Shown piece after piece: positions 9,570 through 22,946 of a stretch of 64,000 nucleotides of DNA. This DNA comes from Balneolaceae bacterium. Its GTDB lineage: Bacteria; Bacteroidota; Rhodothermia; Balneolales; Balneolaceae. The notes beneath the pieces are model-generated. The model made no database searches. It saw only the letters and a program-made list of their open reading frames with translations, and had not been told where the DNA came from. The position numbers were made by a program, and so were the translations under genes. The stretch is taken from NCBI GenBank assembly GCA_017643365.1, contig JAEPNO010000002.1, positions 219,849 through 283,848 on the forward strand. The letters are read 5' to 3'. The number at the start of each line of letters is the position of its first letter. Within the stretch, counting starts at the first letter, position 1.

Positions 9570-9871
9570 ATTATTTAGAGCAATTTCTGTAAATGAATTT
9601 CCTTTCCGTTGCTTCCCTTCAAGTTAATGAATCTTTAAACTAGATAAGGAAGTTCCTTAGTTAGCAAAGATTTTTTAACAATTGTTCTTATCTTGCCGAT
9701 AAGGCGGAAGACAAACAAAAACGGGTATTTGGTGAGGTTTATTTAGAACAGATTTAAATAAGCCAACAAGTCATCAATAAATACTATTCGTTCCAAATTT
9801 TCGATACTTTTGGCTCGCCTCAATTTGGAGGCATTACGCCGTGATAACTCAACAAAAATCAGCTAAAAAAT
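9570..9871. promoter_or_regulatory. 302-bp divergent intergenic region with an inverted repeat
   Basis: This region separates the DUF420 gene (leftward) from the respiratory operon (rightward) and must hold both promoters. It contains the inverted repeat CTTATC-TTGCC-GATAAG at 9687-9703, possibly an operator. TACTTTTG at 9805-9812 matches the Bacteroidota -7 consensus TAnnTTTG, about 60 bp before actA. I did not find a convincing -33 element at the standard spacing. Confidence 0.4.
9805..9812 (+). promoter_or_regulatory. Candidate -7 promoter box for the act-cox operon
   Basis: TACTTTTG fits TAnnTTTG, the -7 element recognised by the Bacteroidota primary sigma factor. Transcription would start near 9818, leaving a leader of about 54 bases before actA. 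No clear -33 box is visible, so this is tentative. Confidence 0.3.
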
Positions 9872-10516
9872 ATGGCGCAGATTTTCCCCAAGTGGACAAA
9901 TCAGGTTCCCCGACTGATATTAGTAGGACTAATTGTAACTGTAAACGTAGTTATTTTGGGAGTTTGGTATTTCTTTTCTCCAGAATACACCGATGTAGGT
10001 TACGCACCTGAACAACCCGTTCCATATTCACATCAAATACACGTGGACAAACTTGGCCTCGACTGCCAATACTGCCATACTTCTGTTTGGGATTCAAAGC
10101 AGGCTAACATCCCGCCTACTCAAACTTGTATGAACTGCCACAATCAAATTAAAACAGACAGCGAAAAACTTGCTCCTATCCGCGAAAGTTGGGAAACAGG
10201 CAAAGCTGTAGAATGGGTTCGTGTTCACAACCTTGCTGATTATGCTTATTTCAATCATGCTGCTCACGTAAATGTGGGTGTGGGGTGTGAAAGCTGCCAC
10301 GGCAGAATCGATAAAATGGAAGTGGTGTACCAAGCCGAGCCATTAAGCATGAGCTGGTGCCTTGATTGCCACAGAGAACCGGAAAAATATTTACGCCCGG
10401 TTGAAGAAGTAACAACCATGGGGTATGAAGTGGAAGACCAGCTTACTATTGGAGCAGAACTGGTTCGTAAAAACAACGTGAGCCCTCCCCAGTATTGTCA
10501 GGGCTGCCACTACTAA
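9872..10516 (+). CDS. actA: Alternative Complex III pentaheme cytochrome c subunit
   Basis: ActA is the multiheme cytochrome of the quinol:cytochrome c oxidoreductase ACIII, a substitute for the bc1 complex. One membrane segment (about residues 12-35) anchors a periplasmic domain with exactly five CXXCH sites, at about residues 65, 86, 139, 163 and 209, the last three residues from the C-terminal Tyr. It is the first gene of the operon. A putative -7 promoter element lies about 60 bp upstream. Confidence 0.95.
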   Translation: MAQIFPKWTNQVPRLILVGLIVTVNVVILGVWYFFSPEYTDVGYAPEQPVPYSHQIHVDKLGLDCQYCHTSVWDSKQANIPPTQTCMNCHNQIKTDSEKLAPIRESWETGKAVEWVRVHNLADYAYFNHAAHVNVGVGCESCHGRIDKMEVVYQAEPLSMSWCLDCHREPEKYLRPVEEVTTMGYEVEDQLTIGAELVRKNNVSPPQYCQGCHY

Positions 10517-10546
10517 ACCAAAGATTGTTGAATTTATAATCATCTG

Positions 10547-13500
10547 ATGAGCGAATTAACACAGAAAACATACTGGAAAAGCTTAAACGAGTTAGCTCAG
10601 AATAAAGAATATGAGAAATTCGTTGAGCGTGAATTTCCTGAAAACGCCACCGAATTAAGCGATGGCTTTTCGCGAAAGGGCTTTTTACGAGTGATGGGTG
10701 CAAGTATCGCACTAGCTGGATTTGCAGCATGCCGTCGCCCTGTTCAAAAAATTCTGCCTTACTCGAAACAACCTGAAGACATTGTACCCGGCATTCCTTT
10801 GTTTTATGCCTCTGCAATGCCGTTTCAAGGCAACTTAACCGGACTCGTGGTTGAAAATCACGAAGGACGTCCAACTAAAGTTGAAGGAAATGACCTTCAC
10901 CCGGCTTCCGGTGGAAATACGAATGCGTATCATCAGGCTTCTATTCTAGAGATGTACGATCCGGATCGTTCTAAATTCCCGGTTCGCAATGGTGCTAAAT
11001 CAAGTACCACAGATTTTCACAGCTTTGTAGCTGACTATTTCGCCGACACAAACAAACGTGTGGCGTTTATTTCTGAAGCCAATTCTTCGCCTACATATAA
11101 TGGTCTTAAAGAAGAAGCGCTTAACCGATTTGATAACGCTGAGTGGGTTACTTACGAACCATTTGGCGAAGACAATGCCATTGAAGGAAACAATATCGCT
11201 TTTGGGCGACGTGTTCGTACGCATTACAATTTCACGAATGCGGATATTATTGTATCGCTCGATGACGATTTCCTTGCCCCTACTCATCCAAACAATGTTG
11301 AGTATGCAAAACAGGTAACTTTCAGAAGAAAAGTAACCAGCCAGCAAGATACGATGAACCGTATCTATTCTGTTGAAAATGGATTTACTATTACCGGATC
11401 ATATGCTGATCACCGCAAGAGAGTAAAAGCTAGTGAAATGGCTGATTTCGCCAATGCTCTAGCCGCAACTCTTTCTAGCAGAATCAGTGGTTTAAACAGC
11501 TTTGCATCGGTAAATAACAAATTTACAGGCAGTGAGTTCATCACTGTTTTAGCTGATGACCTTGCTTCAAACGCCGGTCGTTCAGCAGTTTCTCTTGGAT
11601 TTGACTACGCTCCTGAAGTTCATGCAGTGGTAGCAGCTATTAATAGTGCTCTTGACAATTACGGCACTGCTGTAAACCTGCTTCAGGTTCCTCATTTTGA
11701 TAATCAAAACAACAAAACAGCTTTCGCCAACTTAGTTAGTTCTATCAGCGATGGTAATTTTGATGCAGTTGTGATTATCGGGGCAAACCCTGCACTTACA
11801 GCTCCGGCTGATTTAAACTTTACAGAAGCTCTATCAGGAGCTGACGAAGTATTCCATCTCTCTACTTATAATGACGAAACTGCTAAAACGGCCAGCTGGC
11901 ATGTTGCGCGTTCACATTATTTAGAAGCATGGGGCGATGGTTACTCGTTTAGTGGTGCACGAGCTGTGATTCAGCCTCAGATTCAACCATTACACGATTC
12001 TTTATCTGAAATTGAGTTTTTAGGAGCCATAACAAACGCCGGTAAAATTTCCGGCTATGATATGGTTCGTGAGACGTTCAGCAGTTTTTACTCTAGAAAT
12101 TTCGAAAATCGCTGGTTAGACATCCTCCATGATGGAATTGATGTAACCGATGGCTTTTCAACTGCAAATCGTTCTGCACGCAATGTTTCTCCAGCTCCAT
12201 CTACGACAATCAACGAGATTGAAGTAGTAATCAAGCCGGATAACTCGGTGTACGATGGACGTTTCGCTAACTTAGGTTGGTTGCAAGAGCTTCCCGATCC
12301 GATTACGAAAATCACATGGGATAACGTAGCTCTACTAAGTCCTGCAACTGCTGAGTCTTTAGGAATCAGCACTGATGACTATTTAGGAAAAGCTAAGCAA
12401 CCCGTTTTAAATATTGCGGTAAACGGCACTCCAATCAAATTAGCTGCCTGGGTTCAACCGGGCCATGCTGACGATTCAATCACCGTTCATACGGGATACG
12501 GTCGCGAAGGAATTGGCCGTGTAGCTGATGTAAGCTCAGAAAGCTCGCAGTTACTTGATCCTGAAACAACTTCCGGCGGAGTTAATGTTTATCCGATCAG
12601 AACTTCGTCATCTATGCTGTTTGCTCAGGCAGGTGTAAGCGTAACCGGCGAAAAATATCCGATTGCTTGTGTTCAAGATCACCACAGCCTTGAAGGCCGT
12701 GACATGTACCGACAGGCAACTTTAGCTAAGTACAAAGAAAAAGCTGACTACGCTTCTTTCGAATCGATTCATAAGTATGCAGTTCCCGGAATGGCTGAAG
12801 CTGCTGAGCTTGGCGAAGATCAACCCATTTCATTATTTAACGAACAAACCGCAGTAGAAGGCGAACCTCAATGGGGTATGGCCATCGACTTGAATGCGTG
12901 CTTTGGTTGCGGCGTTTGTATTATCGCTTGTCAATCAGAAAACAACATTCCGGTTATTGGAAAGCGTGAAGTTGAGCGTGGCCGTGAAATGCATTGGATC
13001 AGAAATGATCGCTATTACATGGGCGACAAAGAAAATCCACAAGCTGTACACCAGCCGGTGCCTTGTATGCATTGCGAATTAGCGCCATGTGAGCAGGTTT
13101 GTCCGGTTGCAGCAACTACGCATAGTGATGATGGAATGAACCAAATGACGTACAACCGTTGTATCGGTACTCGTTACTGTGCGAATAACTGTCCGTTTAA
13201 AGTTCGTCGATTCAACTTCTTCAACTATCCGAAAGAGTATTTAACCAGCGGTGAAGATCCGGATATCATCCAAATGGCGATGAACCCTGAGGTAACTGTT
13301 CGTTTCATAGGGGTAATGGAAAAATGTACTTACTGTGTACAACGTGTAAATCGCGAGAAAATCAGCGCCAAGATCGAAACCGGTTCACCAAAACCAGCTG
13401 ATGGCACCGTTCAAACAGCATGCCAGCAAGCTTGCCCGGCTGACGCAATTTATTTCGGTGATTTGACCGACGAAAACAGCGAAGTAACGAAAATGAAACG

Positions 13501-13624
13501 TAACGAGCGTAACTACTTAATGCTTGAAGAGCTGAATGTACGCCCACGAACTTCTTATATCGCCAAATTGACGAACCCAAACCCAGCTTTGGTGAAAGAA
13601 ACTAACGAGGAATACGCCCAATAA
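10547..13624 (+). CDS. actB: Alternative Complex III molybdopterin-like/iron-sulfur subunit
   Basis: This 1025-residue protein fuses a molybdopterin-oxidoreductase-like N-terminal part with a ferredoxin-type C-terminal part. Near the N-terminus, [21 protein letters not shown] is a Tat-like segment ending in a Cys that could be lipidated. Cysteine clusters for several iron-sulfur centres begin at about residues 785 (CFGCGVC), 840 (CMHCELAPC), 872 (CIGTRYC), 927 (CTYC) and 959 (CQQAC). In ACIII the first part carries no molybdenum cofactor and the iron-sulfur part passes electrons. It lies between actA and actC. Confidence 0.95.
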
Positions 13625-15051
13625 TGAGTAAATACGAATACATACCAGAGCCAGCACTTGTTAAAGGCAATCATGACTTTGCGAGTATTACTAAACTAGT
13701 TACTGATGTAAACCTCCGCCCTACTCCAAAAAATTGGTATCTGGCAATGTTGCCGGCTAACGCCCTTCTTGGATTACTTCTTGTATCTATCGGATACTTG
13801 ATTTGGGAAGGAACCGGTATCTGGGGATTAAATAACCCGGTAGGTTGGGGTTGGGCGATTATCAACTTCGTATGGTGGGTTGGTATTGGTCACGCAGGAA
13901 CCTTGATTTCTGCCATCTTATTCCTCTTCCGACAGGATTGGAGAACGGCTATTAACCGTTTTGCCGAAGCCATGACCATCTTTGCCGTAATGTGTGCCGG
14001 TGTATTTCCGGCCATTCACGTTGGTCGTATTTGGGTGATTTACTGGGTATTTCCGGTACCAAATCAAATGGCGATGTGGCCAAACTTCAACTCTCCACTT
14101 CTATGGGATGTGTTTGCAGTTTCCACCTACTTTACAGTATCCTTACTATTCTGGTACGTTGGTTTAGTACCTGATTTAGCTACACTTCGCGACAAGGCAA
14201 CTGATAAAATCAGAAAAGTAGCTTACGGTTTATTCGCCCTTGGTTGGACAGGCTCTAGCCGCGCTTGGTGGAACTACGAAAAAGCGTACATGATCCTTGC
14301 CGGTCTTGCTACACCACTGGTACTTTCGGTACACACTATTGTATCCTTTGACTTCGCGGTTTCAATGATTCCTGGATGGCACACCACGATTTTCCCACCG
14401 TACTTCGTAGCCGGTGCGATTTTCTCCGGATTTGCGATGGTACTCACCTTGATGATTGTTGCCCGTAAGATTTACGGCATGAAAGACATCATGACCGACG
14501 ATCACATGGAAAAAATGAACATCATTATTATGGTAACCGGCTCGATGGTTGGCTTTGCCTACATGATGGAATTCTTCATCGCCTGGTATAGCGGTGTTGA
14601 ATACGAAAAAGCAATTTTTATGCTTCGTGCAACCGGACCTTATGCATGGGCATACTGGATCATGATGTTCTGTAACGTGATTTCACCACAAGTTTTCTGG
14701 TTTAAAAAATTACGTCGAAGCGTTGGCTTCACCTTCTTTATCTCGATTGTAGTAAATATTGGTATGTGGTTCGAGCGTTTTGTAATCACCGTTACTTCGC
14801 TTTCTACCGATTACCTTCCATCTTCTTGGGATTACTACTCGCCAACAGCATGGGACGTTTTAACTTACGTAGGTACATTTGGGTTATTCTTTACCATGTT
14901 CCTATTGTTCTTACGCTTCTTGCCTATGATCGCGATTGCAGAGGTGAAATTAGTAATGCCTCAAGGTGATCCACACAATTATGATGATGAAACACAGGAG
15001 TATCATCTACATGTTGAAGAAGTACCACAACCTAAAGCAGTAAAGGCCTAA
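13624..15051 (+). CDS. actC: Alternative Complex III NrfD/PsrC-like quinone-site membrane subunit
   Basis: The 475-residue protein is strongly hydrophobic, with about ten membrane segments, and matches the NrfD/PsrC family. In ACIII this subunit holds the quinol oxidation site. Its ATG overlaps the last base of the actB stop codon, so translation is coupled. The C-terminal 30 residues are polar and acidic. Confidence 0.95.
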
Positions 15052-15055
15052 GAGA

Positions 15056-15604
15056 ATGAGTACTACAGAATCAAAAAATCTTTACGGTATACTAGCCGAG
15101 TTCAAAAACCCAAAAGCATTGGTTGATGCCTCTGCAAAGGTAGTTGAAGCAGGTTACGATAAATTCGACACGTACACACCATTTCCGGTTCACGGAATTG
15201 ATAAAGCAATGAATTTACCTAAATCAAAATTGGGTTACATCGTGTTTGGGCATGCACTACTAGGTTTTTCAGGTGCAATCGCCATGATGTATTTCATGTC
15301 GGTAATTGATTACCAAATCAACATCAGTGGTAAACCATTCTTCAATGCTCCGGCTTGGGTTCCAATCACTTTTGAGCTTACCGTATTACTTTCGGCCTTT
15401 GGAGCAGTATTTGGCATGTTCTTTTTAAATGGACTTCCAAAACTAAGCAATCCACTTTTCGAAGTAGAGCGTTTTAAGAAAGCTACCGACGACGGTTTCT
15501 TTGTATGCATCGAAGCAAAAGACAGTAAATTTCAGGCCGACTTAGTTCGACAGTTATTCGAAGAAGCAGGTGCTACGCATATTGAGGAAGTTTATGAGCA
15601 GTAA
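15056..15604 (+). CDS. actD: Alternative Complex III subunit ActD (DUF3341)
   Basis: At 182 residues, with two membrane segments (about 60-85 and 100-125) between soluble ends, this is a typical ActD. The N-terminal part (YGILAEFKNPKALVDA, PFPVHGIDKAM) carries the family signature. It begins four bases after the actC stop. Confidence 0.93.
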   Translation: MSTTESKNLYGILAEFKNPKALVDASAKVVEAGYDKFDTYTPFPVHGIDKAMNLPKSKLGYIVFGHALLGFSGAIAMMYFMSVIDYQINISGKPFFNAPAWVPITFELTVLLSAFGAVFGMFFLNGLPKLSNPLFEVERFKKATDDGFFVCIEAKDSKFQADLVRQLFEEAGATHIEEVYEQ

Positions 15605-15626
15605 TCAGTTTAAAATATCAACATTT

Positions 15627-16634
15627 ATGAATACGAAGGGCTTAGGTAAAGCCGGTGGTGTATTGTTAGTAGGTTTGATGTTAAGTGGCTGCCGTGGCAC
15701 CATTTCAGAAAAACCACCTATCCACCCTAACATGAATATGGATCAGCAACCACGTGTTGAGGCTCAGGAAGTAAATAACTTCTTCGAAGATGGTCGCGCA
15801 ATGCGACAGCCCGTTGAAGGTACAGTTGCTCGTGGTTTCCGTAAGTCGGATGCTGCTTATTACGAAGGCGTTGACGAAAATGGCGATTGGATTTCTGAAA
15901 CTCCGGTTGAATTAACAAGAGCATTACTCTACCGTGGACAAGAACGATACAACGTGTATTGCACTCCATGCCATGGCATTACCGGCGATGGACAAGGTAT
16001 CATCATGACTGGTCAATACGGTTATGTTCCTGCTCCAACATTCCATCAAGATCGTTTACGCGAAGCACCGGATGGCGAGATTTACTCTGCAATTTACAAC
16101 GGCGTTCGAAACATGCCGTCGTATGCGCATCAAGTTCCTGTAGAAGACCGATGGGCTATTGTTTCTTACATCCGAGCACTCCAAGCTAGCCAAAATGTAT
16201 CGGAAGAAGACATCGCTAATTACGATATCGACCTTGATGAGTTAAAAGCAGAGTTTTCGGCTGTTGCAGAAGCAGAAGCTGAGTTTGAAGCTGCAAAAGA
16301 AGCTCAAAGCGCAGATGTTGAAGCTACCGCTGATCTTGGTAAAGAAATTATCACACAATACGCTTGTGGCGCTTGCCATAATGTTACTGGTGATCCGGGT
16401 GGAATTGGCCCAACGTGGAAAAACTTATTCGGTAGCGAAGCGGAAGTAGTAACCGAAGATGGTAGCCGAACTACAGTAACAAAAGATGCTGATTATATTA
16501 TCGAATCTACTGTGTATCCAGAGGCAAAGAAAACTGCCGGTTACGAAAATAGTGTAATGGTTGCTTATGATTACTTAGCTGAGCACGAATTGCAGTCTAT
16601 CGTAGAATACATCAAAACACTGAGCGACAATTAA
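15627..16634 (+). CDS. actE: Alternative Complex III cytochrome c subunit, diheme form with a CoxB-like C-terminal domain
   Basis: I chose the ATG at 15627 because it gives a clean lipoprotein signal (MNTKGLGKAGGVLLVGLMLSGC, lipobox LSGC, Cys22). ATG 15594 and GTG 15570 would start inside actD. The first cytochrome domain has CTPCH near residue 112, the expected ActE heme. An Ala/Glu-rich linker (about residues 200-235) joins it to a second domain with CGACH near residue 247. This second domain shares IGPTxK, DGS, YPxxKxxAGYxN and IEYxKT with the C-terminal domain of CoxB in the same operon. ActE is usually monoheme, so this looks like a fusion. Confidence 0.9.
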   Translation: MNTKGLGKAGGVLLVGLMLSGCRGTISEKPPIHPNMNMDQQPRVEAQEVNNFFEDGRAMRQPVEGTVARGFRKSDAAYYEGVDENGDWISETPVELTRALLYRGQERYNVYCTPCHGITGDGQGIIMTGQYGYVPAPTFHQDRLREAPDGEIYSAIYNGVRNMPSYAHQVPVEDRWAIVSYIRALQASQNVSEEDIANYDIDLDELKAEFSAVAEAEAEFEAAKEAQSADVEATADLGKEIITQYACGACHNVTGDPGGIGPTWKNLFGSEAEVVTEDGSRTTVTKDADYIIESTVYPEAKKTAGYENSVMVAYDYLAEHELQSIVEYIKTLSDN

Positions 16635-16655: not shown

Positions 16656-17870
16656 ATGAGTCATAAACCTACAATAACCGATTCTTTACAATTTCCAGCA
16701 GATAGCAAGATTCCACGTGTTCTTCTAATTGTTGGAGCTGTTGGATTGTTAGCCACAGCGATTGGTTTCGCAACTGATTTAGAGCAGTCTCTTTACTCTT
16801 ATTTAGTAAGCTTTGTATTCTTTACGGGCATCGGCCTCGCATCTGTGTTTATGGTGATGTTTCATCATATCACGAAATCGAAATGGGGCGTTGTTGTTCG
16901 CCGTATTCCTGAAACTTTTGGTGGAAATTTAAAATGGTGGTCGCTTGCCTTCTTGCCAATTCTTGGTGGGATGACAGTTTTATACCATCACTGGACCGAT
17001 CCAACTCTATTCGATCCATCTTCTGCTAATTTCGATTATATCGTAGCAAAAAAAGAGTCTTACTTAAATGTACCTTTCTTCATTATTCGCCAGGTTATTT
17101 ACTTCGCAATTTGGGGATATGTAGGTCACAAATTATACAAAGCATCTGTAGAGCTTGAGAAAACCGGCGATTGGGGCATCACAACCTTAATGCGTAAAAT
17201 CAGTGCTCCTGCTATTCCATTATTCGGTTTATCTATCGCCTTTGCAAGCTTCGATTGGTTAATGTCGCTTGATCCACACTGGTTCTCTACCATGTTTGGT
17301 GTTTACTTTTTTGCAATCAGTTTCCAGAGTTTCTGGGCAATTATGATTTTGATGGTGTTCTTCCTTCAATCACGAGGATTGCTTAAAAACACGATTGGTC
17401 AGGTTCACATCTATGATCTAGGCGCTTGGTTATTCGCATTCACTGTATTTTATGCATACATCGCATTTAGCCAGTTCTTATTAATCTATTACGCTAACCT
17501 TCCGGAAGAAACCCTTTGGTTTTACGAGCGATTAGAAGGTAGCTGGAAATACATTGCTTACGGATTATTACTATTCCGTTTTGTACTTCCATTCCTAACA
17601 CTACTAAACAGAGAGCAAAAGCATAGAAAGAATGTGCTTCGCTTTGTAGCTATCGTAGTAGTGATTATGCACTATCTAGAAATTTACTGGATTGCAATGC
17701 CGATGCTAAGTGAGCACGGTATCAACTTCTCTTGGATCGATTTAACATCGTTCTTTGGTCTTGGAGGAATCTTCTTCTGGATGTTCTTCAAAAAATTTCA
17801 GCAAAACAGCATGATCCCTGAAAATGATCCAAAATTGGATGCATGCTTAGAAAAAACGTATCACCAATAA
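16656..17870 (+). CDS. actF: Alternative Complex III membrane subunit ActF
   Basis: The 404-residue protein has about ten membrane segments and resembles ActC in topology but is more divergent. That is the usual picture for ActF, the structural partner of ActC. It follows actE by 21 bp. The C-terminal tail after the last helix is short. Confidence 0.93.
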   Translation: MSHKPTITDSLQFPADSKIPRVLLIVGAVGLLATAIGFATDLEQSLYSYLVSFVFFTGIGLASVFMVMFHHITKSKWGVVVRRIPETFGGNLKWWSLAFLPILGGMTVLYHHWTDPTLFDPSSANFDYIVAKKESYLNVPFFIIRQVIYFAIWGYVGHKLYKASVELEKTGDWGITTLMRKISAPAIPLFGLSIAFASFDWLMSLDPHWFSTMFGVYFFAISFQSFWAIMILMVFFLQSRGLLKNTIGQVHIYDLGAWLFAFTVFYAYIAFSQFLLIYYANLPEETLWFYERLEGSWKYIAYGLLLFRFVLPFLTLLNREQKHRKNVLRFVAIVVVIMHYLEIYWIAMPMLSEHGINFSWIDLTSFFGLGGIFFWMFFKKFQQNSMIPENDPKLDACLEKTYHQ

Positions 17871-17882
17871 TCCTGTTTTAGA

Positions 17883-18401
17883 ATGTCATCAACACACACT
17901 GCAGAGTTTAAAGCGAAAGTTGCCCTTGAAGCACTTTCTGGTAACAAAGACTCAGTTTCTGAGGTTGCAGCCAAATATGATGTAACTACTGCCGAAGTAG
18001 AAGCATGGGTGAGCGAACTTCAAGGTAATGCAACCGCTGCTTTTGGCGGAAGCGATCAGGGACAAGTTATCGATGTAGAAATCGAATCTGACAACGACGC
18101 TTTTGTACATGCCGTAAATTACGGTGTAGAAGATGAAGGCTTAAACATGCCCTCAATCTATATGTGGTCGGGAATTGGAATTGTTGCCGTTGTTGTATTT
18201 ATCGCTGTGCTCATCCCTTTTGCACAGTATTCATTAAATAATGCGAAAGAAAATGCGAATGTAACTTCATCGTACTACGAGATCGAAAAATTGACGCAGG
18301 AAGCTGACGAACGATTGAACAGCTATGGTGTTGTAGATCTTGAAGAAGGTGTTTATCGCATTCCTATCGACGAGGCCATTAATACACTAGCTGTAGATTA
18401 A
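17883..18401 (+). CDS. Small membrane protein with an IS3 OrfA-like helix-turn-helix domain
   Basis: The first 48 residues (HTAEFKAKVALEALSGN, then SEVAAKYDVTTAEVEAWVSEL) closely resemble the helix-turn-helix of IS3-family transposase OrfA (HTH_Tnp_1). Instead of a transposase partner there is an acidic linker, one membrane segment at about residues 98-120, and a C-terminal tail with LNSYGVVDLEEGVYRIPID. The gene is fully embedded between actF and the SCO1 gene with 12- and 14-bp gaps, so it is an operon member, not an insertion. I infer a small accessory subunit of ACIII or caa3. The function of the HTH part is unknown. Confidence 0.75.
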   Translation: MSSTHTAEFKAKVALEALSGNKDSVSEVAAKYDVTTAEVEAWVSELQGNATAAFGGSDQGQVIDVEIESDNDAFVHAVNYGVEDEGLNMPSIYMWSGIGIVAVVVFIAVLIPFAQYSLNNAKENANVTSSYYEIEKLTQEADERLNSYGVVDLEEGVYRIPIDEAINTLAVD

Positions 18402-18415
18402 TTACTAATTCATTT

Positions 18416-19243
18416 ATGAAACGAATTGCACTGTTAACTTTCTTAGCAGTGCTTTCTTCTTTTAGTCACCTAAGCGCACAGCTTAACCGTGAACAACCCG
18501 AAGCACTGCAAAGCGTTGGAATAAACGAAAATCTGGGAGCTACTCTCCCCTTGGATACACGCTTTGCAACAAGTGATGGAGATAGTGTATCGCTTGCCGA
18601 TTTATTCGAAGATGGCAAACCCGTTTTATTAAATCCGTTGTATTACGATTGCCCCATGTTGTGTGGACTTGTAATCGACGGAGTGCTCGATGTTGCCAAT
18701 AATTTAGCTTGGGCTCCCGGCAACGAATACACCATTATTTCTTTTAGTATCGATCCCTCTGAGGATCACACTTTAGCCGCAGAATATAAAAGCCGATACC
18801 TCGATCAACTAAACAAATCTGACGCACAAGATGGCTGGTATTTTTTAACTGGAAATAAAAAAAATATTCAGCATTTAGTTAATGCTGTCGGCTTTGAAAT
18901 TAACGAAATTGAAGACACCGGAGAGTTCGCTCATGCCGCCGCAATCATGCTTATTAGCCCAAATGGCGTAATAACTCGCTATCTTTATGGCATCCAGTAT
19001 GATGAGTTTAATGTACGAAGCGCACTATATGAAGCAGCTGACGGAAAGATCGGAAATACACTCACAAAAGTGCTTATGTACTGCTATCAGTACGATCCGG
19101 ATTCCAACAGCTATGTTCCATTTGCGATAAATATTATGAAGCTTGGTGGTTTGGCTACACTCTTATTTCTTGGTATCTTCATAGGCCTTTTATGGCTACG
19201 TGAAAGAAGGAAAAAACAAACATCTAATATCGATTTCCAATAA
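18416..19243 (+). CDS. SCO1/SenC family copper chaperone
   Basis: SCO proteins deliver copper to the CuA site of cytochrome c oxidase subunit II. A signal peptide (MKRIALLTFLAVLSS...LSA) leads into a thioredoxin-like domain with the copper-binding CPMLC (about residue 80) and the His in FAHAAAIML. A C-terminal membrane segment (about residues 243-262) followed by RERRKK anchors it. Its stop overlaps the coxB start, as expected for a dedicated CuA loader. Confidence 0.93.
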   Translation: MKRIALLTFLAVLSSFSHLSAQLNREQPEALQSVGINENLGATLPLDTRFATSDGDSVSLADLFEDGKPVLLNPLYYDCPMLCGLVIDGVLDVANNLAWAPGNEYTIISFSIDPSEDHTLAAEYKSRYLDQLNKSDAQDGWYFLTGNKKNIQHLVNAVGFEINEIEDTGEFAHAAAIMLISPNGVITRYLYGIQYDEFNVRSALYEAADGKIGNTLTKVLMYCYQYDPDSNSYVPFAINIMKLGGLATLLFLGIFIGLLWLRERRKKQTSNIDFQ

Positions 19244-20184
19244 TGGGTAGACTATTCGATTTCATGCTCCCGGACAACAAGTCTCCGCTTACGGCAGACA
19301 GCACCGACGGGCTATTTCATTTCATCAACGAAGTGAGTTTAATCTTTTTAGTGGGCATTACAATTGCTCTAATTTACTTCGCAATTAAGTACAAGCGTAA
19401 ATCCGAGGACGATAAGACCCCGGTAATCACGCACAACAACACGCTCGAGATAACCTGGTCGGTAATACCATTGCTCATTGTGATGGTTGTTTTCGGTTGG
19501 GGCTATTCCGGATGGTTGAACCTCAAAGCCGTTCCAAACGATGCTTACGAAATTCAGGCTACGGGTTATAAGTGGAACTGGAACTTCAACTACGAAAATG
19601 GTGCTCAAACACTAAATGAGCTTCACGTGCCTAAAGGCCGGCCTATCAAAGTAGTAATGCAATCGCGCGATGTATTGCATTCGTTCTTCATCCCCGACTA
19701 CCGAGTAAAACACGATGTTGTGCCTGGTAGATATACCTACGTTTGGTTCCAAGCTGAAGAAACGGGCGAATCTGTGATATTCTGTACTGAATATTGCGGA
19801 ACTAGCCATTCTGATATGTTGGCTAAAGTAATTGTACACGAACCGAACGAGTTTGAGCAATGGCTTGAACTTAATGGCGGCGGAATTCAAGGAACTCCCG
19901 TTGAACAAGGCGAGCAACTTGTATCGCTACAAGGTTGCCAAACTTGCCACAGTATCGATGGTTCGCCGAAAATCGGTCCTACTTTCAAAGGAATTTGGGA
20001 GCGTGAGCAACAATTAACCGACGGAAGTACGGTAGTTGTTGATGAAAATTATATCAGAGAGTCAATTCTGTATCCGGGTAATAAAGTTGTTGCCGGATAT
20101 CAGAACGTGATGTCGCCTTATGAGGGAAGACTAAGCGACGACGAAATCACTAACATTATTGAATACCTAAAAACCATTAATTGA
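19243..20184 (+). CDS. coxB: Cytochrome c oxidase subunit II with fused cytochrome c (caa3 type)
   Basis: Two N-terminal membrane helices are followed by a cupredoxin domain with a full CuA site: His in DVLHSFF, then C181 and C185 in [12 protein letters not shown], with H189 and M192. A fused cytochrome c domain with CQTCH (from residue 232) completes a caa3-type subunit II. It accepts electrons from ACIII and passes them through CuA to subunit I. Confidence 0.96.
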
Positions 20185-20185
20185 T

Positions 20186-21925
20186 ATGGCGATCACAGAA
20201 GCGAAAAAAATGACCACTCTTCAGGTTAAGCGGTTCAAGCCATCAGAAAACCCAACAAATACGTTCTTAACCGACGAAAAAGGTGTTTGGGCTTGGATGA
20301 CAACCGTTGATCACAAGAAGATCGGCATCATGTACCTTGTTGCAGTTGCTTTCTTCTTTGCACTTGCAGGCTTTCTTGCAATTGCACTTCGAACAGAACT
20401 TTGGACACCGGCTAAAACTTTTATCGAAGCCGATACTTACAATCAGCTATTTACCCTGCACGGTGCCATGATGGTATTCTTTGTGTTGGTGCCTAGTATC
20501 CCGGCTGCCCTCGGTAACTTCATCTTACCTATGCAACTTGGCGCAAAAGATGTAGCATTCCCAAGATTGAACCTTGCTAGTTTATACATCTACGTTGCGG
20601 GTGCAATTTTCACTTTTGCAGCGCTTGCTTCCGGTGGTTTTGATACCGGTTGGACTTTCTACACTCCGTACAGCTCCGATGGAAACGGTGCCGGTGTAAT
20701 TTGGGTAACGCTTGGAGTTTTCATTTTAGGATTCTCCTCTATCCTTACCGGAACAAACTTTATAACTACTATCCATAAGCTACGTGCTCCCGGTATCACT
20801 TGGGATCGACTTCCACTAAACATCTGGGCACTGTATGCAACTTCGATTATTCAGGTATTAGCTACTCCTGTTTTAGCAATTACCATCCTGTTACTTTCTT
20901 TCGAGAACATCATGGATATCGGGATTTTTGATCCTGCTTTGGGCGGTGATCCAGTTCTTTTCCAGCATTTCTTCTGGTTCTATTCTCACCCTGCGGTATA
21001 CATTATGATTGTACCGGGTTTTGGAATTATCTCAGAAGTAATCTCAACATTTTCAAAGAAAACAGTTTTCGGATATTGGGCCATCGCTCTTTCTTCGCTA
21101 GCAATCGCATTTATTGGCTTCCTTGTTTGGGGTCATCACATGTTCACATCCGGACAAAGTGCCGTTGCAACAACTGTATTCTCATTCCTAACCTTCTTGG
21201 TAGGTATCCCAACAGGGATCAAAATCTTTAACTGGATTGCAACACTTTACCGTGGCTCCATCGACATGAAGACGCCAATGCTATATGTATTCATCTTCTT
21301 GTTCTTATTCTCGATCGGTGGTTTTACAGGTATTATGCTTGGTGCGCTTTCGGTAGATATTCACTTACATGATACCTACTACGTTGTAGCTCACTTTCAC
21401 TATGTGATGATGGGCGGTACGTTGATTGCTTTACTGGCCGGTTTACATTACTGGTGGCCAAAAATGACCGGTAAAATGTACAACGAAAAACTTGCTCAGA
21501 TTTCAGCAGTACTGATTTTTATCGGCTTTAACATGACTTTCTTGCCACAATTTATCATGGGTGCGCAAGGCATGCCGCGTCGTTATTACAACTATATCGA
21601 TCAGTTTACTCCGTTCCACCAAACATCCACTATTGGATCGTACATTCTTGGTGTTGCATTCCTGATTATTCTATACTACTTGGTTAAATCACTTTTCAGT
21701 GGAGAAAAAGCGCCTTCAAATCCATGGAACAGCCGTGGCCTAGAATGGCAATCAACTTCGCCACCAGATTTCCATAATTTTGATCACACTCCGGTTGTAA
21801 TCAACGGACCATACGACTACCACAAGCCAATGGAAGAATTCCAGTTAGGATTAGCGGTATCGCATGAAGGACACGACGCAGAGCATGCTCCTGCCGAAGT
21901 GGACACGACCGAAGAAAAAGCTTAA
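20186..21925 (+). CDS. coxA: Cytochrome c oxidase subunit I (A2-type heme-copper oxidase)
   Basis: This is the catalytic subunit, holding heme a and the heme a3-CuB site and pumping protons. The helix VI motif is [16 protein letters not shown] (Y266, S267, H268). A1 oxidases have HPEVY with a proton-channel Glu, whereas here Tyr and Ser precede the His, the pattern of A2-type enzymes such as the Rhodothermus caa3. GHHMFTSG supplies the CuB His pair, and [13 protein letters not shown] supplies heme ligands. The His-rich acidic tail is soluble. Confidence 0.97.
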
Positions 21926-21949
21926 ATCAATCTAAAACTCAACTAATAA

Positions 21950-22615
21950 ATGGCTAATCATTCAGCATCTCACCCTGCTCATGTTCAGCACCATTTTGTA
22001 GATTCGGACCAACAGTTCGATTCTGCAAAGCTTGGAATGTGGGTATTTCTGGTGAACGAAATTCTCTTTTTCGGAGGGTTATTCTGTGCCTATATCATCT
22101 TCAGGGCATGGTACCCCGAACTATTCACCCAAGCAGCCCTACAACTCGACAAAGTTTGGGGTGGTGTTAACACGATCGTACTTATCGGTAGTTCATTAAC
22201 CGTTGCAATGGCTATTCGTTCTGCTCAAAGAAACGAGATTAAAGGCCTGCGCATCAACTTGATGATCACCATCTTACTTGCTTGCGTATTCTTAGTAATT
22301 AAGTATTTCGAGTACGAGCACAAGTTGCATTTAGGAATAGCTCCGGGCTTCTTTTGGAATCCTGCTCCTGAGGTAACAGCAACGTTAGATCATCCACAAG
22401 CTAACATCTTCTTTAGTATATACTATATGATGACCGGTATACACGGACTTCACGTTCTCGTTGGTATCGGATTAATGATATGGTTGTATATCCGCGCAGG
22501 AAAAGGTCATTTTAGCGCCGAGTATTACACTCCGGTTGAAATCACAGGCCTTTACTGGCACTTGGTTGATTTGATCTGGATTTTCCTATTCCCATTGTTA
22601 TACTTAATTGAATGA
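21950..22615 (+). CDS. coxC: Cytochrome c oxidase subunit III
   Basis: The 221-residue protein is a typical heme-copper oxidase subunit III with five membrane segments. The last part carries GIHGLHVLVGIG and GLYWHLVDLIWIFLFPLLY. A His-rich soluble N-terminus (HSASHPAHVQHH) precedes the first helix. It starts 24 bp after coxA. Confidence 0.95.
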   Translation: MANHSASHPAHVQHHFVDSDQQFDSAKLGMWVFLVNEILFFGGLFCAYIIFRAWYPELFTQAALQLDKVWGGVNTIVLIGSSLTVAMAIRSAQRNEIKGLRINLMITILLACVFLVIKYFEYEHKLHLGIAPGFFWNPAPEVTATLDHPQANIFFSIYYMMTGIHGLHVLVGIGLMIWLYIRAGKGHFSAEYYTPVEITGLYWHLVDLIWIFLFPLLYLIE

Positions 22616-22628
22616 GAGGTTTTTAGAA

Positions 22629-22946
22629 ATGAGCGCACAAGAACATCACGGACATCATATTGCATCAGTTAAAATGCTGTGGTCGGTTGGCATTGGGTTA
22701 ACCATTCTAACCGTTTTAACAGTAGTAGTATCATCGTTAGGTCTTCCTAGTCCTCTCGATATCTTATCAGCACTAGCCATTGCTTTAGCGAAAGCTTTTT
22801 TAGTAGCAACCTTTTTTATGGCATTAAAATGGGAGCACCGCTTTAATGCAGTACTTCTCATTGGTGCGGTTGTCTTCTTTTTATTGATGGTTGGAGTAAC
22901 CTTACTCGATACCATGTACAGAATTGAAGTAGTACCTTCTTTCTGA
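22629..22946 (+). CDS. Cytochrome c oxidase subunit IV
   Basis: This 105-residue protein has three membrane segments and matches the prokaryotic subunit IV family (VATFFMALKWEHRFN is characteristic). I chose ATG 22629 over an in-frame TTG at 22608 inside coxC. It is the last gene of the operon, with a terminator 22 bp beyond its stop. Confidence 0.88.
   Translation: MSAQEHHGHHIASVKMLWSVGIGLTILTVLTVVVSSLGLPSPLDILSALAIALAKAFLVATFFMALKWEHRFNAVLLIGAVVFFLLMVGVTLLDTMYRIEVVPSF

Follow-up and report, generated by a model that had tools for sequence, protein, structure and literature searches.

A transposase-type HTH domain at the N-terminus of the ACIII subunit ActG in Balneolaceae

How a helix-turn-helix (HTH) of transposase type came to stand at the head of a membrane protein encoded in a respiratory operon, and what it might do there, is the question raised by a gene of a Balneolaceae bacterium (assembly GCA_017643365.1). 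The gene lies in a stretch of 64,000 nucleotides from contig JAEPNO010000002.1 (positions 219,849 to 283,848; hereafter the window), and its features are collected in Table 1. A first-pass annotation had proposed that a transposase domain was domesticated there as part of a membrane-bound respiratory accessory protein. One half of this proposal stood, in that a transposase-type HTH has become part of a membrane protein encoded in the ACIII-caa3 operon; the other half did not, since the accessory protein is not new but the known subunit ActG, which lacks the HTH elsewhere.

The gene, its operon and the ActG core

The open reading frame has an ATG as its only early start and is separated by 12 nt from the end of actF (17870) and by 14 nt from the start of the SCO1 gene (18416), so that the tight placement between these two genes described in the annotation agreed with both the coordinates and the domain matches of the neighbors. 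Upstream, ActC (13624-15051) matched 6f0k_C with E=1e-214 and ActD (15056-15604) matched PF11821 with E=4e-64, and ActA, ActB, and ActE were assigned by position and sequence features. Downstream, the caa3 oxidase genes encode a COX2 plus cytochrome c domain and a COX1 domain (E=3e-152). Homologues were present in 38 of 39 close relatives, and the placement after actF that the annotation wished to see checked held in every fetched Balneolales locus, with actF and SCO1 as the neighbors. Together with the purifying selection on the HTH codons described below, these homologues and their synteny exclude chance or a frame artefact as the origin of the reading frame.

The remainder of the protein likewise corresponds to the first description, with a hydrophobic helix from residue 89 followed by a strongly conserved C-terminal tail, whose consensus in the alignments is '..LNSFGVVDxExGIYRIPIDSAI..'; the family signature is 'LxxYgvvDxxxGxYRIPIDxAM'. 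A scan of the window protein found neither CXXCH nor a redox cofactor motif. No match in the PDB was obtained for the window protein on its own. With a profile of the last ~100 residues (alignment A2), which cover the core, 82 of the 296 genomes searched in the phylum gave homologues, including two Rhodothermus genomes, G041 (E=7e-15) and G046, which is R. marinus R-10 (E=3e-16). Across the fetched Balneolales and Rhodothermia loci, ActG lay between actF and SCO1 or adjoined actF. Previous work on R. marinus ACIII identified ActG as a seventh subunit with one predicted transmembrane (TM) helix by mass spectrometry of the purified complex, saw no density for it in the cryo-EM map, and called it non-essential for catalysis (PMC5928083). 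R. marinus ActG (L062) shares with the window protein the place between actF and SCO1, the single TM helix, and a 'GVYRxPIDxAM' tail, but it has a short N-terminus without an HTH. Given the same place in the operon and the homology of core and tail to R. marinus ActG, the window gene is the actG of a respiratory operon for ACIII and caa3, and its core consists of one TM helix followed by the conserved tail. The idea of a stand-alone regulator gene with no link to ACIII was dropped, because the core is ActG.

Chloroflexus aurantiacus ActG (8k9e_G) was reported to be specific to Chloroflexus and absent from R. marinus (PMC9316378). The broad profile A4 matched it weakly, with E=0.0011 over the last ~36 residues only, in the tail 'LNSYG..IPIDRAMDLIVE', which includes 'IPIDRAM'. 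This common tail suggests that, contrary to that report, the Chloroflexus protein is not organism-specific, the match being a short one; at 112 aa it is too short to hold an added HTH, unlike the window protein. Short proteins with an ActG tail also occur outside Bacteroidota and Balneolota, namely L156 and L159 (KSB1), L160 (Neomarinimicrobiota), L163 (Polyangiaceae), and L164 and L165 (Zixibacteria). The Zixibacteria form is only 83 aa long and passes from 'MKK' directly into the TM helix.

Table 1. Features of the HTH-bearing actG gene, its operon context, and ActGs with another N-terminal domain
Feature	Position or locus	Strand	Basis
HTH-ActG gene	17883..18401	+	ORF, 172 aa; homologues in 38/39 relatives; conserved actF-SCO1 placement
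IS3-OrfA-type HTH domain	17901..18047	+	Pfam HTH_Tnp_1 / HTH_Tnp_ISL3, NCBIfam IS66 TnpA and IS3 transposase, AlphaFold2
Acidic linker, residues 56-88, variable length	18048..18146	+	alignment A1; pLDDT 56-67
Single TM helix, residues 89-114	18147..18224	+	hydrophobicity, charge count; AlphaFold2 helix 89-146
ActG C-terminal tail	18225..18398	+	conserved at the level of order, class, and phylum; short, weak match in Chloroflexus ActG 8k9e_G
Tail signature L145-I166 'LNSYGVVDLEEGVYRIPIDEAI'	18315-18380	+	within ActG C-terminal tail
actA to actE (context)	9872..16634	+	ORFs; ActC and ActD tested
actF (context)	16656..17870	+	6f0k_F R. marinus ActF, E=2e-97
SCO1/SenC gene (context)	18416..19243	+	Pfam SCO1-SenC, E=9e-10
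caa3 oxidase genes (context)	19243..22946	+	subunits II and I by domain match; III and IV by position
Fn3/Ig-like N-domain ActGs	L065, L066, L067, L069, L070, L071, L073, L152, L161		Rhodothermia and related genomes

Transposase kinship and history of the N-terminal domain

The first 48 residues had been likened to the HTH of IS3 OrfA, and several lines of evidence bore this out. The window protein itself scored 18.7 bits against Pfam HTH_Tnp_1 over residues 5-50, below the cut-off of 24.1, while orthologues passed that cut-off with 25.9 to 36.3 bits; the model was matched in the ActGs of 10 of 30 relatives, with a best E-value of 7.1e-7. In NCBIfam, the window protein matched IS66 TnpA (E=9e-6) and IS3 (E=4e-4), both below the curated cut-offs. 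AlphaFold2 modeled a three-helix HTH (helices 7-19, 24-32, and 36-55) with a block pLDDT of 91-96, so the fold is not an unrelated one. Foldseek with the whole model returned nothing significant; the Shigella transposase protein TnpE (2rn7) stood at rank 2 with a non-significant E=0.72, and 2jn6 was also listed without significance. A PDB search with the HTH profile recovered only designed repeat proteins, homeodomains, and a sigma factor through short local matches. When the genomes of the relatives were searched with the same profile, the best matches outside ActG were frames of IS3 OrfA size, the top one being an OrfA at L168 (E=1.9e-12) directly followed by an OrfB with an rve integrase domain.

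Comparison with IS3 OrfA, for example L168 from the same order, showed a tri-helical HTH near the initiator Met in both proteins, with K13, A32, and W45 as common profile residues and a trailing 'NA..AF' in part of the family. The recognition helix of OrfA is basic, and the protein has an additional helical stretch and is followed by OrfB; in HTH-ActG both this helix and the linker are acidic, a TM helix is present, and the next gene is SCO1 rather than an OrfB. The first ~55 residues of the window protein are thus an HTH of the transposase superfamily with IS3 OrfA as the best genomic match. Within this superfamily, IS3 is the favored but not the only candidate donor, as NCBIfam places IS66 TnpA slightly above IS3 and a tree of the HTH has too few columns to separate the candidates. 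The shortness of the domain, the lack of a donor in that tree, and matches of some members to HTH_28 and of one to a SciP-type model would be compatible with descent from another, non-transposase HTH protein of the same superfamily. Such an origin appears highly improbable, however, as transposase models gave the commonest and best curated matches and the best genomic matches outside ActG were the OrfA-size frames, including the one that is followed by its OrfB.

The domain has a restricted distribution. In Balneolaceae, a family of halophilic and marine bacteria, about 71 of 92 genomes hold an HTH match in an ActG-size frame, as counted by frame length. Within Gracilimonas, for example, G. 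mengyeensis has the HTH and G. amylolytica lacks it. In 16 genomes from the order's other families, ActG occurs but has no HTH, and the HTH matches there fall in frames of transposase size; Rhodothermia and other phyla also have ActG without it. HTH-less homologues are therefore the rule outside Balneolaceae, which the annotation had named, together with an unrelated fold, as grounds against its reading. The corrected reading is that a transposase HTH was welded onto a pre-existing ActG, rather than that a new accessory protein arose. On an ActF tree of 120 rows, in which every deep Balneolaceae branch includes HTH-bearing rows, the HTH state changed 5 times, compared with 40 changes for shuffled labels, and a tree of ActF, SCO1, and the ActG core also gave 5 changes. 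As the outgroups lack the HTH, these 5 changes are read as one gain and four losses; the domain is confined to Balneolaceae and, most simply, was gained once in the stem of the family and lost about four times. A regain in the subclade of the window is an alternative history of equal length. Loss as a single event in that subclade was rejected, since grouping the six HTH-less rows, a constraint named after a tree had been seen, cost 40.9 log-likelihood units (p-AU 0.0004). Apparent stumps of helix 1 were read by eye in HTH-less members, such as 'MASEEPTYSSESKAKEDT' in L021.

Selection and exchange at a modular N-terminus

Pooled over independent close pairs, dN/dS was lowest in the core (0.08) and reached 0.14 in the HTH and 0.17 in the linker, indicating that the HTH is not decaying. 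Its hydrophobic-core positions are intact across the family, but its recognition helix has lost the positive charge by which such domains hold DNA. The mean net charge of the recognition helix was +1.63 in 19 transposase HTHs versus -1.81 in 62 ActG HTHs (Mann-Whitney p=9e-10, with rows that are not independent). The basic OrfA positions 44 and 46 are lost in the ActG HTHs, and acidic residues (D/E) predominate at positions 40, 41, and 48.

The domain also behaves as an exchangeable unit. Two species groups of genus g17 (L041 and L042 versus L043 and L044) showed 65-70% identity across about the first 150 nt of actG, but mostly 85-100% in actF, SCO1, and the remainder of actG, with 95% or more next to the junctions. 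The divergence of the HTH stretch includes synonymous sites and forms a sharp recombination mosaic, demonstrating that the HTH module alone was replaced locally between g17 species. Elsewhere, the same end of the protein carries a different fold. Nine ActGs from Rhodothermia and relatives have an N-terminal domain of ~90 residues instead of the HTH; Pfam gave weak fn3/Ig matches in most of those scanned, and one was modeled with modest confidence as a beta-sandwich whose Foldseek matches were Fn3 structures (E=2e-4). With the HTH in Balneolaceae and the Fn3-like domain in Rhodothermia, unrelated folded domains occupy the ActG N-terminus in at least two lineages.

Lysine and arginine are commoner on the N-side than on the C-side of the TM helix in 36 HTH-ActGs and fewer in 7. 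Considering this excess together with the minimal homologues, in which 'MKK' precedes the TM helix, the charge rule gives moderate support for an HTH-ActG N-terminus that is probably cytoplasmic. The tail would then lie on the periplasmic side, together with the haem and Fe-S subunits. In most Fn3-type ActGs, the charge rule points in the opposite direction.

Possible roles of the domain

The best explanation, to which a probability of about 0.55 is assigned, is an actG with a lineage-specific, once-gained transposase HTH that would now serve docking or stabilization on the cytoplasmic side. An IS3 element may have landed at actG, whereupon a deletion would have joined the start of orfA in frame to actG. 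Because its recognition helix is acidic, the HTH presumably no longer binds transposon DNA. It could instead be a small folded domain that makes a protein-protein contact at the cytoplasmic face of ACIII or of an ACIII-caa3 supercomplex, serving assembly, stability, or supercomplex formation, and it would be helpful but dispensable, with an Fn3-like domain at the same end in some Rhodothermia. A contact of this kind is proposed because the domain is folded, selected, acidic, swappable, dispensable, and probably located at the cytoplasmic end of a subunit of ACIII; docking as such is reached by exclusion and from the ActG context.

The repeated losses would also fit a near-neutral domain. The fusion might have been fixed by chance, with an HTH that folds without use and is occasionally lost, as the four losses on the simplest reading of the tree, the faster evolution of the HTH relative to the core, its swapping, and the reported dispensability of ActG itself for catalysis (PMC5928083) would allow. 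Yet a dN/dS of about 0.14 and an intact hydrophobic core argue that the HTH has a function under selection, or at least that its fold is constrained, leaving a tolerated passenger as a rather unlikely but serious explanation.

DNA binding by the HTH is judged less likely. Regulators of the ToxR/CadC type combine an N-terminal winged HTH, whose DNA-contact helices are basic, with a single TM helix and a C-terminal extracytoplasmic part. HTH-ActG resembles them in having an N-terminal HTH, one TM helix, and a C-terminal, probably extracytoplasmic part, and differs in that its core is a respiratory-complex subunit and its recognition helix is mostly acidic. A membrane-tethered one-component regulator, in which the periplasmic tail would sense the state of the complex and the cytoplasmic HTH would bind DNA such as the act promoter, would fit the order of parts (HTH, linker, TM helix, tail) and the intact, selected fold, and a related HTH is found on two PAS/HisKA_2 signaling kinases of the family. 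It nevertheless seems unlikely, since most ActGs have an acidic recognition helix, sister species without the HTH retain this operon, and the longest short-spaced inverted repeat upstream of actA is not conserved. That repeat, an imperfect one of 12 bp with the sequence CTAGATAAGGAA-T-TTCCTTAGTTAG, lies at 9640-9664 between actA and the divergent upstream gene; it was absent from the eight relatives in which it was sought (one of the same genus and seven others), and no conserved palindrome upstream of actA was found across the window and these eight relatives. A bolder combination, in which the ActG N-terminus is an accretion point of ACIII for unrelated modules and the Balneolaceae HTH has kept a contact with nucleic acid or with a partner on the chromosome, is very doubtful; if true, the contact would form a direct link between the respiratory supercomplex and the nucleoid or the control of its own operon.

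ActG was known as an ACIII subunit; among the papers searched, none described a transposase HTH in ActG, and no experiment on any Balneolaceae ActG was found. The analysis provides this little understood subunit with a signature sequence, shows it to be widely distributed, and reveals N-terminal modules that are specific to single lineages. The locus is also a clear example from bacteria of selection keeping a transposase DNA-binding domain in a protein of energy metabolism, apparently not for DNA binding.

A second non-transposase use of the domain was observed in two Balneolaceae, where a related IS3-OrfA-type HTH forms the N-terminus of ~660-aa sensor kinases with PAS-PAS-PAS-HisKA_2-HATPase architecture (L166, G012:C4 ~730072; L167, G004:C31 ~6764).
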